This document shows positions 7,078-24,539 of a DNA stretch of 34,939 bases, in pieces. The notes beneath the pieces were generated by a model, which saw only the letters and a program-made list of their open reading frames with translations, was not told the DNA's origin and ran no database searches. Within the stretch, counting starts at the first letter, position 1; each line of letters begins with the position of its first letter. The translations under genes were made by a program, and so were the position numbers. Origin of the DNA: Bacteroidota bacterium (GTDB lineage: Bacteria; Bacteroidota; Bacteroidia; Flavobacteriales; Flavobacteriaceae); assembly GCA_024280815.1 (NCBI GenBank), contig JAJRPL010000044.1, positions 1 to 34,939 on the forward strand, in the 5' to 3' direction.

Positions 7078-7389
7078 TTATAAATCTTTTTGCTCTATAA
7101 TTTTACCTGCATTATTAAATAATACTTCAATACTAGCCGTATCGTCTTTAGTCAATTGCACATAATATACTTCTTGACCATCTAATATTGATTTAAAAGC
7201 TTTACCTGCTGTATAATTAGAAAATTCTGAAGTTATAGCATTGGTAATTGCTTCAGGTAATTCACCTACTTGAATTTCACTTTTTTCTTGTTGGATAGTC
7301 TCTGCAGTGGCTTCAACTACATCTTGAGCGAATACGGTACTTGTTAAACTTAATGTCACAAATACAATTAAATAACTTAGCTTTCTCAT
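7078..7389 (-). CDS. Small exported PepSY-like protein (tandem unit A)
   Basis: MRKLSYLIVFVTLSLTSTVFAQ signal peptide; IQVGELPEAITNAITSEFSNYTAGKAFKSILDGQEVYYVQLTKDDTASIEVLFNNAGKII, PepSY-like. Confidence 0.75.
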   Translation of the reverse strand: MRKLSYLIVFVTLSLTSTVFAQDVVEATAETIQQEKSEIQVGELPEAITNAITSEFSNYTAGKAFKSILDGQEVYYVQLTKDDTASIEVLFNNAGKIIEQKDL

Positions 7390-8654: not shown

Positions 8655-8948
8655 TTATTGTATTACTTTGCCTTCAGCATTATAATCTACTTCAATAGCT
8701 TCACCATCTTTAAATAATTGTATTGAATATATATATTGTCCGTTTTTTGAAGATGTAAAGACTTTTCCAACAGAGTATCCTTTATAATCTGTAGCCAATG
8801 CTTTTGCAATTGCTTCAGGAAGTTGATCTAAGTGAATTTCAGCTCTTTCTTGTTGAACCACTTTAGCTACTTGTTCTTCTTGTGCAAAAGTAGTTGTGTA
8901 GATTAAACTTAATAGTATGAATGCTATTAGAGTGCTTAATTTTCTCAT
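8655..8948 (-). CDS. Small exported PepSY-like protein (unit D); start trimmed to MRKLSTLIAF
   Basis: Signal peptide MRKLSTLIAFILLSLIYTTTFAQ; IHLDQLPEAIAKALATDYKGYSVGKVFTSSKNGQYIYSIQLFKDGEAIEVDYNAEGKVIQ; paralogue of 7078..7389. The longer ORF start (9023) would run through the shared promoter repeat. Confidence 0.75.
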   Translation of the reverse strand: MRKLSTLIAFILLSLIYTTTFAQEEQVAKVVQQERAEIHLDQLPEAIAKALATDYKGYSVGKVFTSSKNGQYIYSIQLFKDGEAIEVDYNAEGKVIQ

Positions 8949-8971
8949 GATGTTTATTTGTTTTGTTACCA

Positions 8972-9006
8972 TAAATATAGAAAGAGAATCTAAAGAGAAT
9001 CTAAAG
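8972..9006 (-). promoter_or_regulatory. Promoter with 11-bp tandem direct repeat (unit D)
   Basis: Weak -7 TATATTTA (8972-8979), 3 bp gap, AGAGAATCTAA x2 (8983-9004). Confidence 0.7.
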
Positions 9007-9088
9007 GTGATAGAGATATACAAGACATCCCTTTTAATCCCTCATTGAAGGTTTGTAAATTAAAATCTTTTTGGCCATCGCCCTGCGA

Positions 9089-12109: not shown

Positions 12110-13773
12110 TTAATACGCATCATCATGTACATTAGCGACTGCTCTTCCAGAAGGATCATTCATGTTTTTAAAACTTTCATCCCATTCTAATGCGATTTTT
12201 GTACTACACGCTACAGAAGCTTCTTGAGGCACACATAAAGCGGCAGCATCACTAGGGAAATGTTCTGTAAAAATTGAACGGTAATAAAATTCTTCCTTTG
12301 AAGTTGGGGTTTGTAAAGGGAATTTAAACTTGGCATTTGCCAGTTGTTCATCGGTTATGGCTTCATTTACTACTTCTTTCAAGGTGTCAATCCAACTATA
12401 ACCAACACCATCAGAAAATTGTTCTTTTTGTCGCCAAGCCACACTTTTGGGTATCATATCTTCAAAAGCTTTTCTTACTACCCATTTTTCCATACGTTCA
12501 CCATTAATCATTTTGTCTTGCGGATTGATACGCATGGCAACATCCATAAATTCTTTATCTAAAAAGGGTACACGCCCTTCAATGCCCCAAGCGGCTAAAC
12601 TTTTATTGGCACGCAAGCAATCATACATGTGTAATTTACTCAATTTACGAACTGTTTCTTCATGAAATTCTTTCGCATTTGGTGCTTTATGAAAGTATAA
12701 ATAGCCTCCGAAAAGTTCATCAGCTCCTTCGCCAGATAGCACCATTTTTATTCCCATAGATTTGATAACTCTAGCCATTAAGTACATAGGTGTAGAGGCT
12801 CTAATTGTGGTAACATCATAAGTTTCTAAGTTGTAAATCACATCACGAATAGCATCTAATCCTTCTTGAATGGTGAATTTTATTTCATGGTGAATTGTAT
12901 CTATATGATCTGCGACTACTCGTGCAGCAGCTAAATCTGGCGAACCTTCTAATCCTACAGAAAAGGAATGTAATTGTGGCCACCAGGCATCTTTAGTATC
13001 GTCAGATTCTATACGTTTTTCAGCATATTTTTTTGCTATTGCAGAGGTAATTTATGAGTCTAACCCTCCAGAAAGTAATACTCCATATGGTACATCAGAC
13101 ATCAATTGTCTATGAACAGCAGCTTCTAATGCTTCTTTAATTTCTTGAATACTGGTTTCATTATCTTTTACAGCGTCATATTCCGTCCAATCTCGATGGT
13201 ACCATTTAACAAGTTTTCCATTACTACTTGACATATAATGACCTGGAGGAAATAATTCTATTTTGGTACAAACGCCCTCTAAAGCTTTTAGTTCAGAAGC
13301 AACATAGAAAGTCCCGTTTTGATCCCATCCAATATATAATGGAATAATACCCATGTGATCTCTCGCAATAAAATATTCATCTTTTTCAACATCATAAATA
13401 GCAAAGCCAAAAATTCCATTCATTTCATCAATAAAATCAACACCCTTCTTTTGGTATAATGCTAAAATAACTTCACAATCAGATTCTGTTTGAAAATTGT
13501 ACGAACCTTCAAATTGTTTTCGTAACTCTCTATGGTTATAAATTTCGCCATTGGCAGCTAAAATTAGAGACTTATCCTCATTAAATAGAGGCTGCTTACC
13601 TGAAGCAGGATCAACAATAGCTAGGCGTTCATGAGCTAATATAGCATTATCCTCACTATGAATTCCACTCCAATCTGGACCTCGATGACGAATTTTTTAG
13701 ACATTTCTAAAACTTGAGGTCTTAATACCTCAACATTTTGCTTTAAATCGAATGCACATACAATTCCACACAT
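12110..13773 (-). pseudogene. asnB: Glutamine-hydrolysing asparagine synthetase B, disrupted by a -1 frameshift and an in-frame TAA
   Basis: MCGIVCAFDLKQNVEVLRPQVLEMSKK, frameshift in T6/A6 run 13693-13698, then RHRGPDWSGIHSEDNA...; VLLSGGLDS*ITSAIAKKYAEKR with stop at 13052-13054; then TTIRASTPMYLMARVIKSMGIKMVLSGEGADELFGGYLYFHKAP. Confidence 0.88.
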
Positions 13774-20205: not shown

Positions 20206-20232
20206 CCTCCCCTTTGGGGAGGTTAGGAGGGG
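20206..20232 (+). repeat. Palindromic element at trpG-trpD junction
   Basis: CCTCCCC TTT GGGGAGG TTA GGAGGGG, ending 1 bp before trpD ATG. Confidence 0.8.
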
Positions 20233-21293: not shown

Positions 21294-22073
21294 ATGAACA
21301 TACTAGACAAAATAATAGCAGACAAAAGAAAGGAAGTCGCCTTAAAAAAGGAACACATTCCAGTTCAACTACTAGAGCAGATACCTTTTTTTGAACGGGC
21401 AACCATTTCTTTGGCAAATAATTTAAGAAATAGCTCAACGGGAATTATAGCAGAATTTAAAAGAAAATCTCCTTCAAAATCTATAATTAATAATACAGCT
21501 ACTGTTGAAGATGTTGCTTTTGGATATGAAAATGCAGGAGTTTGTGGTATGTCAGTTTTAACCGATGAAATTTATTTTGGGGGCACTTTAGATGATTTAA
21601 TACTCGCCAGAGAAAGTTGTAATTTACCACTATTACGAAAGGATTTTGTTATTGATGAATATCAATTGTTAGAAGCTAAAGCTTTTGGTGCTGATGTTAT
21701 TTTATTAATCGCAGCGGTATTGACCAAACAAGAAATCAAACAATTTTCAACCTTTGCAAAAGAATTAGGGTTAGATGTATTGTTAGAAGTACACGATGAA
21801 AAAGAATTACAAAAATCTATCATGCCAAGCTTAGATATGTTAGGTGTAAACAATAGAAATTTAAAAACTTTTGAAGTGAGTTTAGATATGAGTAAAGAGC
21901 TGGCAAGTAAAATACCGAATGATTTTGTAAAAGTTTCTGAAAGTGGTATTAGTTCAGTTGAAGCCATAAAAGAATTAAAACCTTATGGGTATCAAGGGTT
22001 TTTGATAGGCGAGAATTTTATGAAAACTGAAAATCCTGGAGAAAGTGCTAAGAAGTTTATTAGCCTCCTCTAA
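21294..22073 (+). CDS. trpC: Indole-3-glycerol-phosphate synthase
   Basis: IIAEFKRKSPSKSIIN; LLRKDFVIDEYQLLEAKAFGADVILLIAA; LGVNNRNLKTFEVSL; VSESGISS. Confidence 0.96.
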   Translation: MNILDKIIADKRKEVALKKEHIPVQLLEQIPFFERATISLANNLRNSSTGIIAEFKRKSPSKSIINNTATVEDVAFGYENAGVCGMSVLTDEIYFGGTLDDLILARESCNLPLLRKDFVIDEYQLLEAKAFGADVILLIAAVLTKQEIKQFSTFAKELGLDVLLEVHDEKELQKSIMPSLDMLGVNNRNLKTFEVSLDMSKELASKIPNDFVKVSESGISSVEAIKELKPYGYQGFLIGENFMKTENPGESAKKFISLL

Positions 22074-22090
22074 CTCCTACAAAGGAGGGG
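22064..22090 (-). repeat. Palindromic element at trpC-trpF junction, opposite orientation, contains trpC stop codon
   Basis: CCTCCTC TAA CTCC tacaaa GGAGGGG; reverse complement matches the C-arm/G-arm/TTAG/G-arm layout. Confidence 0.65.
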
Positions 22091-22129
22091 AATTAAGAGG
22101 TTAATATTTTTAAAATTAAGAATTAAGTA

Positions 22130-22861
22130 ATGAGTGTAGAACAAGACAAATTCTTTCCCTTCGAGGGAGATGCCGAAAGGCAGAGGGGGCTCAAAATCTG
22201 CGGTATGAAACACCAAGAAAATATCCTAGCAGTTGCTGCATTGCAACCAGACTATCTAGGTTTTATTTTCTATGAAAAATCTGCCCGTTTTTTTGATGGA
22301 GAAATACCCGATTTACCTAAAAACATCAAAAAAGTAGGTGTTTTTGTAGACGCTTCTGTTGAATATATTCTTAAAAAAGTAATTGAATATGATTTGCAAG
22401 CAGTACAATTACATGGCAATGAGTCACCTGAATTTTGTGAAGTATTACTTCGTCACCCTGTCCCGAAGTCTCGGGAGTATTCAGGGTCTCATCAAACAGA
22501 AATCATCAAAGTCTTTTCCATAAAAGACACCTTTAATTTCTCAGTTTTAAAAGCCTATGAAGAAGTGTGTGATTACTTTTTATTCGATACCAAAGGAAAA
22601 AAACCTGGAGGGAATGGTTATACGTTTAATTGGGAAGTGTTAAAAGAGTACCCATCAACAAAACCCTATTTTTTAAGTGGTGGTATTGGGCTTGAAGAAG
22701 TTGACAACATATTGTCTTTCCTGCGTAGGCAGCCCCGAAACTTCGGGGCAAAATATTGCTACGCCATCGACGTAAACAGTAAGTTTGAAATCAAACCAGG
22801 ATTAAAAGATATAGATAAATTAAAAGAATTTAAAAAGAACTTGTCATTTCTATTGAGATGA
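22130..22861 (+). CDS. trpF: Phosphoribosylanthranilate isomerase with in-frame palindromic insertions
   Basis: LKICGMKHQENI; DYLGFIFYEKSARFF; LQAVQLHGNESPEFCE; FDTKGKKPGGNGYTFNWE; FLSGGIGLEEV; AIDVNSKFEIKPGLKD. Confidence 0.94.
   Translation: MSVEQDKFFPFEGDAERQRGLKICGMKHQENILAVAALQPDYLGFIFYEKSARFFDGEIPDLPKNIKKVGVFVDASVEYILKKVIEYDLQAVQLHGNESPEFCEVLLRHPVPKSREYSGSHQTEIIKVFSIKDTFNFSVLKAYEEVCDYFLFDTKGKKPGGNGYTFNWEVLKEYPSTKPYFLSGGIGLEEVDNILSFLRRQPRNFGAKYCYAIDVNSKFEIKPGLKDIDKLKEFKKNLSFLLR
22155..22189 (+). repeat. Palindromic element in trpF N-terminal coding region
   Basis: TTCCCTTCGAGGGAGATGCCGAAAGGCAGAGGGGG, encoding most of an extension before LKICGMK. Confidence 0.7.
22452..22490 (+). repeat. 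Palindromic element in trpF coding region (GTC...CTC family)
   Basis: GTC ACCCTG TCCCGA AGTC TCGGGA GTATT CAGGGT CTC: 39 bp (13 codons), nested stems. Confidence 0.8.
22714..22748 (+). repeat. Third palindromic element in trpF coding region
   Basis: GTCTTTCCTGC GTAG GCAG followed by CCCCGAA AC TTCGGGG. Confidence 0.65.
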
Positions 22862-22920
22862 AAATTCAAATAAAATTAAACAAGTGACCGCTTTAAACTA
22901 AGAATATAAATTGAAAGGTT

Positions 22921-22946
22921 GTCCCCTTGAGGGGACTTTAGGGGTG
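22921..22946 (+). repeat. Palindromic element at trpF-trpB junction
   Basis: GTCCCC TTGA GGGGAC TTT AGGGGTG. Confidence 0.75.
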
Positions 22947-23003
22947 TTTGATATTGACACTAAAAACATTAAACTCCCATCTTAATAGTAACATAATAGT
23001 ATT

Positions 23004-24190: not shown

Positions 24191-24539
24191 GTCATTTCCG
24201 CTTTCGCGGAAATCTCATAAATAGTATTTATGCACATGTTTTATGTTTACATATTAACAAATAAGAATCATACAACTTTATATATTGGGATGACTAATAA
24301 TTTAAAGAGGAGGTTAATTCAGCATAAAAATGGAAAGAAAAATTCATTTTCAGTAAGATATAATTTAGATAAACTAGTTTATTTTGAAACTACAAAGTAT
24401 GTCTTAAATGCGATTAAGAGAGAAAAGCAACTAAAAAAGTGGAATAGAGAGTGGAAAAATAACCTAATAAATGGACTGAATCCAGATTGGAATGACCTTT
24501 CGGATAATTTTTAGAGATTCCCTCTTGCGAGGGAATGAC
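24191..24539. mobile_element. Candidate palindrome-bounded GIY-YIG element
   Basis: Left end GTC ATTTCCGC TTTC GCGGAAAT CTC (24191-24216); right end, reverse complement, GTC ATTCCCTC GCAA GAGGGAAT CTC (24514-24539); single GIY-YIG gene between them. Confidence 0.6.
24230..24514 (+). CDS. Small GIY-YIG nuclease-domain protein (URI/YhbQ-like)
   Basis: FYVYILTNKNHTTLYIGMTNNLKRRLIQHKNGKKNSFSVRYNLDKLVYFETTKYVLNAIKREKQLKKWNREWKNNLINGLNPDWNDL. Confidence 0.93.
   Translation: MHMFYVYILTNKNHTTLYIGMTNNLKRRLIQHKNGKKNSFSVRYNLDKLVYFETTKYVLNAIKREKQLKKWNREWKNNLINGLNPDWNDLSDNF

Follow-up and report, generated by a model that had tools for sequence, protein, structure and literature searches.

The trpF gene of the Flavobacteriaceae genome studied here carries, in frame, a 39-bp nested palindrome that constitutes an insertion in a surface loop of the encoded enzyme, on the side of its TIM barrel opposite to the active site. 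This loop, between α4 and β5, is an insertion hot spot in which about ten relatives hold other, often decayed, repeat copies. The palindrome is probably a nested, non-autonomous mobile repeat resembling the CGTC-tagged REPs and copied in frame into a tolerant loop, with a small GIY-YIG nuclease as its proposed mobiliser. The window, that is, the whole stretch of 34,939 nucleotides that was analysed, belongs to genome G000, and the other G and L numbers used below denote the genomes and loci with which it was compared.

The element occupies positions 22452–22490 of the forward strand and is composed of a GTC border, an outer left arm ACCCTG (22455–22460), a nested inner palindrome TCCCGA-AGTC-TCGGGA (22461–22476, with arms at 22461–22466 and 22471–22476), the pentanucleotide GTATT, an outer right arm CAGGGT (22482–22487) and a CTC border (22488–22490). 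With the base that precedes it, the left border forms a CGTC tag (22451–22454), and the pairing of the outer arms, evident in the sequence, is also present in the RNA fold (−17.3 kcal/mol, z = −3.3 relative to mononucleotide shuffles). The first-pass annotation had described an in-frame GTC...CTC palindrome of 39 bp in trpF, and both the letters and the open frame are exactly as it gave them; its translation of the insert was read in the correct frame before TEIIKVFSI, with the omission of one Q. It had also noted that the borders are those of the ends of a GIY-YIG element, and the same GTC and CTC are indeed found there, the element starting 1.7 kb away at 24191. A search of the 2.62 Mb genome returned no second copy of the exact 39-mer (its reversed control gave no matches). 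Three hairpins made of GTC, 6-bp arms and CTC are found in the window, namely the one in trpF and those on either side of the GIY-YIG gene; 200 dinucleotide shuffles give an expectation of 0.075, and the nested form, present once in the window, was never obtained in those shuffles.

The host ORF (22130–22861, forward strand) encodes phosphoribosylanthranilate isomerase: its sole Pfam match is PRAI (PF00697, E = 4.9e-33), nearly full length, and the top Foldseek matches of its model are the TrpF structures 1dl3, 1v5x and 1nsj. The frame runs uninterrupted through the palindrome (EFCEVLL-RHPVPKSREYSGSHQ-TEIIKVFSI), which encodes most of the α4-β5 loop, and the motifs KICGM, LFDTKG, GGNG and LSGGI are all intact. 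The segment that follows LHGxExPEFC has 23 residues in the window and 9–14 in most of the 35 or more relatives aligned (11 in most of those free of REPs), so that the gap predicted by the first-pass annotation is present. It had also proposed modelling to see whether the insert falls in a surface loop. This is the case in the AlphaFold model obtained with an alignment of ten TrpF sequences, taken from the window and from named genomes (pLDDT 83, pTM 0.82; the prediction made with no alignment, pLDDT 34, was unusable), in which the inserted residues 109–123 connect the helix 100–108 to the strand 124–131 with a low local confidence, as expected of a flexible loop. In (βα)8 enzymes, the α-to-β loops are situated at the end of the barrel that does not carry the active site, its stability face; tolerance of inserts by TrpF at the α4-β5 loop is therefore expected.

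The conserved protein begins near codon 21 of the ORF (LKICGM), and the extension upstream, to which those of relatives are unrelated, contains a palindrome of another type, CCCTTCGAGGG (22157–22167, forward strand), that is possibly untranslated. Another palindrome type, CCTCCCCTTTGGGGAGG and similar sequences, is found in the spacers of the trp operon (20206–20222, 22070–22095 and 22915–22950).

The nested element belongs to a real repeat family with copies elsewhere in the genus. It recurs as GTCACCCTGTCCCGAAGCTTCGGGAGTTTCAGGGTC in three intergenic copies in G003 and, with a one-base variation, in one copy in G007; with a strict pattern, the ACCCTG type was counted five times in G003, twice in G007 and once each in G000, G004 and G012, and GTCATT types are present in 63 and 76 of the 101 family genomes. 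The same nesting is displayed by another repeat of G000, GTCATTCCTG-TCCCGAAACTTCGGGA-GCAGGAATC (L120, 16542–16576). The inner palindrome TCCCGANNNNTCGGGA has 39 sites in G000 and 103 in G001, with none in G002 and G009, and its reversed control was absent from these four genomes. The loop of the window matches the REP with a score of 31.5, against a mean of 8.0 for shuffled sequences. An ordinary variable loop in which a palindrome arose by chance would agree with the wide variation of loop length in TrpF, but it is contradicted by the shuffles, the match score and the copies within the genus, and we reject it as exceedingly improbable. A census of hairpins by border triplet, covering 171 kb of G000 and 400 kb of G016, contained too few hairpins for the GTC border to emerge, and the tag was examined next to GIY-YIG genes instead. 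Most strict GTC hairpins within ORFs of the genus samples resemble fortuitous AT-rich matches; we therefore derive no genome-wide rate of in-frame insertion. An in-frame case was seen in G112 (L261, 3863–3886), where a GTCATTCCTGCGAAGGCAGGAATC repeat is translated as VIPAKAGI within an ORF of 489 aa similar to dihydrolipoamide acyltransferases; this peptide probably belongs to a linker.

Among the TrpF loops compared, matches to the REP (p ≤ 0.01 against shuffles) were obtained in 10 of the 16 with at least 18 residues and in none of the 21 shorter ones (Fisher p = 2e-5). The inserts are diverse. The nested ACCCTG form of G000 recurs, its arms decayed, in G007, G008 and G010; a 27-nt ACCCTG form is present in G016 (8-bp stem) and, decayed, in G013; and an ATGCTG form occurs in G035. 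A two-hairpin insert is present in G005 and absent from its sister species G002 and G004, and G015 and G001 hold further types. Inserts are also found in named, cultured species: the loop of Leeuwenhoekiella parthenopeia (L130) reaches about 80 residues and contains GTCACACTGAGCTTGTCGAAGTG close to its beginning, and that of Dokdonia sinensis (L133) likewise holds a long insert. Part of the long loop of L. parthenopeia (L130, 740–1651) is a degenerate VEVPVPSA tandem repeat. According to the first-pass annotation, homologs in which this stretch is equally long, alignable and not palindromic would speak against an insertion; alignable segments of nearly this length and with decayed arms are indeed those of G007, G008 and G010, but they resemble the REP (p 0.003–0.007) and are best read as decayed copies. 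The loop offers a natural series of insertions of different age, in which some hairpins are intact and others have decayed and survive solely as protein sequence, so that mobile DNA turning into protein can be followed.

These inserts could derive from a single ancestral insertion in the genus, followed by turnover of the hairpins or gene conversion, instead of from repeated insertions at a hot spot. Indeed, the ACCCTG-type insert lies at the same codon position and in the same frame in G000, G003, G007, G008, G010, G013 and G016, which makes one old insertion possible for these species. However, the pair of hairpins of G005 among insert-free sisters and the other or longer inserts of G015, G001, G035, L130 and L133 speak against a single event, and descent alone would hardly preserve near-perfect arms across divergent lineages. 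We regard such an ancestral insertion as a real possibility, though not the favoured one, and it is compatible with the mobile repeat proposed above.

A second REP-derived segment of the same gene, TTGTCTTTCCTGCGTAGGCAG plus the nested CCCCGAAACTTCGGGG (22712–22749, forward strand), lies in the α7-β8 loop, where repeats of the GTCATTCCTG type are found in trpF of the window, G001, G006 and G013. A perfect TTGTCATTCCTGCGTAGGCAGGAATC is in frame in G001 and G006, with a loop of 21 residues, equal to that of repeat-free relatives, and the upstream flank in G006 is like the native gene of G016 up to about 8 nt before the repeat. With the loop length unchanged, the native sequence looks overwritten instead of interrupted by an insertion. 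In the trp tree, G006 and G013 fall outside the group of the other carriers, which requires at least two events or an exchange between species. Homology-like overwriting would fit copying during repair; if real, repeats spreading in this uncommon way would escape ordinary indel scans.

The candidate mobiliser is encoded in the same window by a small GIY-YIG nuclease gene of 94 aa (24230–24514, forward strand; PF01541, E = 3.2e-16, 59.8 bits), bracketed by the hairpins GTCATTTCCGCTTTCGCGGAAATCTC (24191–24216, forward strand) and GTCATTCCCTCGCAAGAGGGAATCTC (24514–24539, reverse strand), both with the head outward. The conserved Arg and Glu, R28 and E65, are invariant in A1, and the closest solved structures are the UPF0213 proteins 1zg2 and 1ywl. 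The element within the trp operon is present as a whole unit in G000, G013, G029, G030 (with a decayed gene) and G035, and the short, empty trpB-trpA spacers of other species have no such hairpin pair, which indicates that the hairpins arrive with the gene. The first-pass annotation had taken the trpF palindrome for a non-autonomous copy of this element family: the shared GTC tag and hairpin class agree with this, but the arms of the two ends differ from those of the trpF hairpin, so this particular element was not its source. The ACCCTG-type hairpin of TrpF does border GIY-YIG genes in congeners, including within the trp operon, and the 25-mer GTCACCCTGAATTTATTTCAGGGTC of TrpF in G016 also adjoins GIY-YIG genes in G003 and G013. 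Any local influence of a trp-operon GIY-YIG gene on insertion in TrpF is suggestive at most.

This bracketing extends well beyond the genus. In a scan of GTDB genomes giving 80 GIY-YIG loci from many phyla, 27 had strict GTC hairpins on both sides in the head-out orientation, and 5 in the head-in one. Counted by sides, GTC is by far the most frequent tag next to GIY-YIG genes, on 67 sides against a mean of 2.8 for other tags. With a looser test, head-out GTC hairpins flank both sides in 35 of the 80 loci and at least one side in 59, against means of 0.17 and 2.9 loci, respectively, for the other 63 three-base tags. None of the 319 other ORFs in these loci is bracketed by GTC hairpins, and the density of head-out hairpins is 2.1/kb within 250 bp of the GIY-YIG gene and less than 0.15/kb beyond 500 bp. 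Judged by their record titles, the both-sided loci include Bacteroidota, Bacillota, Spirochaetota, Patescibacteria, Gastranaerophilales, Pseudomonadota and others; some are metagenome bins, in which such labels may be mistaken. The left and right hairpins of one locus match each other (8.2 versus 5.5 of 10 arm bases, permutation p = 2e-4). In the looser test, 21 of the 80 loci had no GTC hairpin, several of them presenting matched hairpins with an eroded tag. In L058 and L059, the GIY-YIG gene is located just downstream of a tRNA gene, and the 3′ part of the tRNA and a terminator-like hairpin are repeated on the other side of the nuclease gene, as though the ends of tRNA genes had been targeted.

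The number of hairpins per genome also follows the nuclease: among 100 family genomes, sampled at about one per genus and with phylogeny not fully corrected for, the median is 15 hairpins in those with a strong GIY-YIG match and 2 in the others (p = 4e-8, Spearman 0.50). The effect persists in RAYT-free genomes (p = 3e-6). In the same sample, RAYT without GIY-YIG had no effect on hairpin number, and RAYT presence added slightly among genomes already with GIY-YIG (p = 0.03). No GTC hairpins were found at the 12 RAYT loci searched (L074–L085), and since RAYT alone is not predictive either, RAYT is disfavoured as the mobiliser. Exceptions exist, however. G117 has 94 hairpins (two patterns) and long GIY-YIG proteins only, with no small GIY-YIG gene, which may reflect the loss of the gene or be a sign of another route, and a strong match to a small GIY-YIG protein is likewise missing from three further hairpin-rich genomes, G073, G074 and G101.

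Alternatively, the nuclease gene could be a passenger or homing parasite, settled beside or between existing hairpins that spread otherwise (by a RAYT-like transposase, template switching or gene conversion). GIY-YIG proteins are known homing endonucleases, and both the abundance of hairpins in G117 and the slight added effect of RAYT would fit this idea. Against it, the hairpin pair is missing from the short empty trpB-trpA sites, the two hairpins are matched within a locus, and neither the RAYT loci nor the presence of RAYT without GIY-YIG points to that transposase. We consider the passenger scenario unlikely, and prefer mobilisation of the repeats by the nuclease, which we infer from the association of the sequences.

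Under this proposed mobilisation by the nuclease, the small GIY-YIG protein, a relative of structure-selective nucleases such as SLX1, would recognise GTC-tagged hairpins and nick or cut there or at similar sequences, and a hairpin-copying repair would then insert or overwrite sequence at new sites; genes would survive where the reading frame is kept and the change falls in a surface loop. A GIY-YIG gene flanked by two hairpins would represent the autonomous form, and hairpin pairs or single hairpins the non-autonomous ones. SLX1, itself a GIY-YIG nuclease, is described as a promiscuous structure-selective endonuclease (PMC9071465), which makes hairpin recognition by the small protein plausible. 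More broadly, small GIY-YIG nucleases could be the missing mobilisers of CGTC hairpins in many phyla, in a two-part system parallel to RAYT/REPIN and based on a different enzyme, with hairpins that insert into or overwrite genes and thereby add loops to enzymes such as TrpF; this generalisation may equally well hold or fail.

CGTC-tagged REPs were defined by Di Nocera et al. (2013) as four families, apparently without a dedicated transposase, and were reported in Bacteroidetes, with some copies inside genes (PMC3733652). The present repeats share with them the CGTC tag at one end, the palindrome, the unpaired 3-nt tail (CTC at 22488–22490 in trpF, the consensus being CCA), the mostly head-to-head pairs and the repetition within the genomes of the group (ACCCTG and GTCATT types). 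In contrast to the 8–9 bp stem with AT pairs at the first and second positions and the 4–5 nt loop of those families (PMC3733652), the outer stem in trpF has 6 bp, with A-T as first and C-G as second pair, and encloses a 21-nt loop with the nested 6-bp palindrome. Because of this shorter stem and long nested loop, the trpF element is best described as a variant of the CGTC-tagged REPs, outside the four families. It further differs in the association with a GIY-YIG gene. No dedicated transposase was reported in 2013 for these REPs, which include some protein-coding palindromes of Rickettsia (PMC3733652); the GIY-YIG genes, flanked in many phyla by CGTC-type hairpins that match each other, provide a named candidate enzyme. 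No paper linking GIY-YIG to REPs was found in the open-access literature, subscription journals and preprints being outside the scope of the search.

The first-pass annotation had drawn an analogy with the Rickettsia palindromic elements (RPEs), which is strengthened by the classification of RPE-4 and RPE-6 of R. conorii as CGTC repeats (PMC3733652). As with RPEs, an in-frame palindrome is tolerated in a conserved enzyme, trpF staying open. However, RPEs are about 150 bp long (PMC10969869), much longer than the 39 bp in trpF, and their sequences and hosts are different, the present host grouping with Flavobacteriaceae, among others by the nearest named neighbours of its GIY-YIG gene; RPEs were here compared by description only. 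Moreover, one enzyme loop is struck repeatedly in many species here, and one site is apparently overwritten with its length unchanged. Similarly, REPIN/RAYT systems combine non-autonomous hairpins with a gene bracketed by the same hairpins, but here the tag is CGTC/GTC instead of GTAG, the bracketed gene encodes a GIY-YIG nuclease instead of a tyrosine transposase, and RAYT genes are not the ones flanked. With GIY-YIG homing endonucleases and SLX1-type nucleases, the candidate mobiliser shares the domain PF01541; unlike the homing enzymes, it is associated with no intron or intein, and its gene lies between matched hairpins.

Elsewhere in the window, an asparagine-synthase-like gene (12110–13423) and a peptidase-like gene (295–1248) are each split in two ORFs, possibly by a frameshift or an assembly error. 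Between 6893 and 8624, repeated terminator-like hairpins, AAACAGCTTAA...TTAAGCTGTTT and AAAACACGC...GCGTGTTTT, surround two related genes for small secreted proteins (7078–7389 and 8655–9023).
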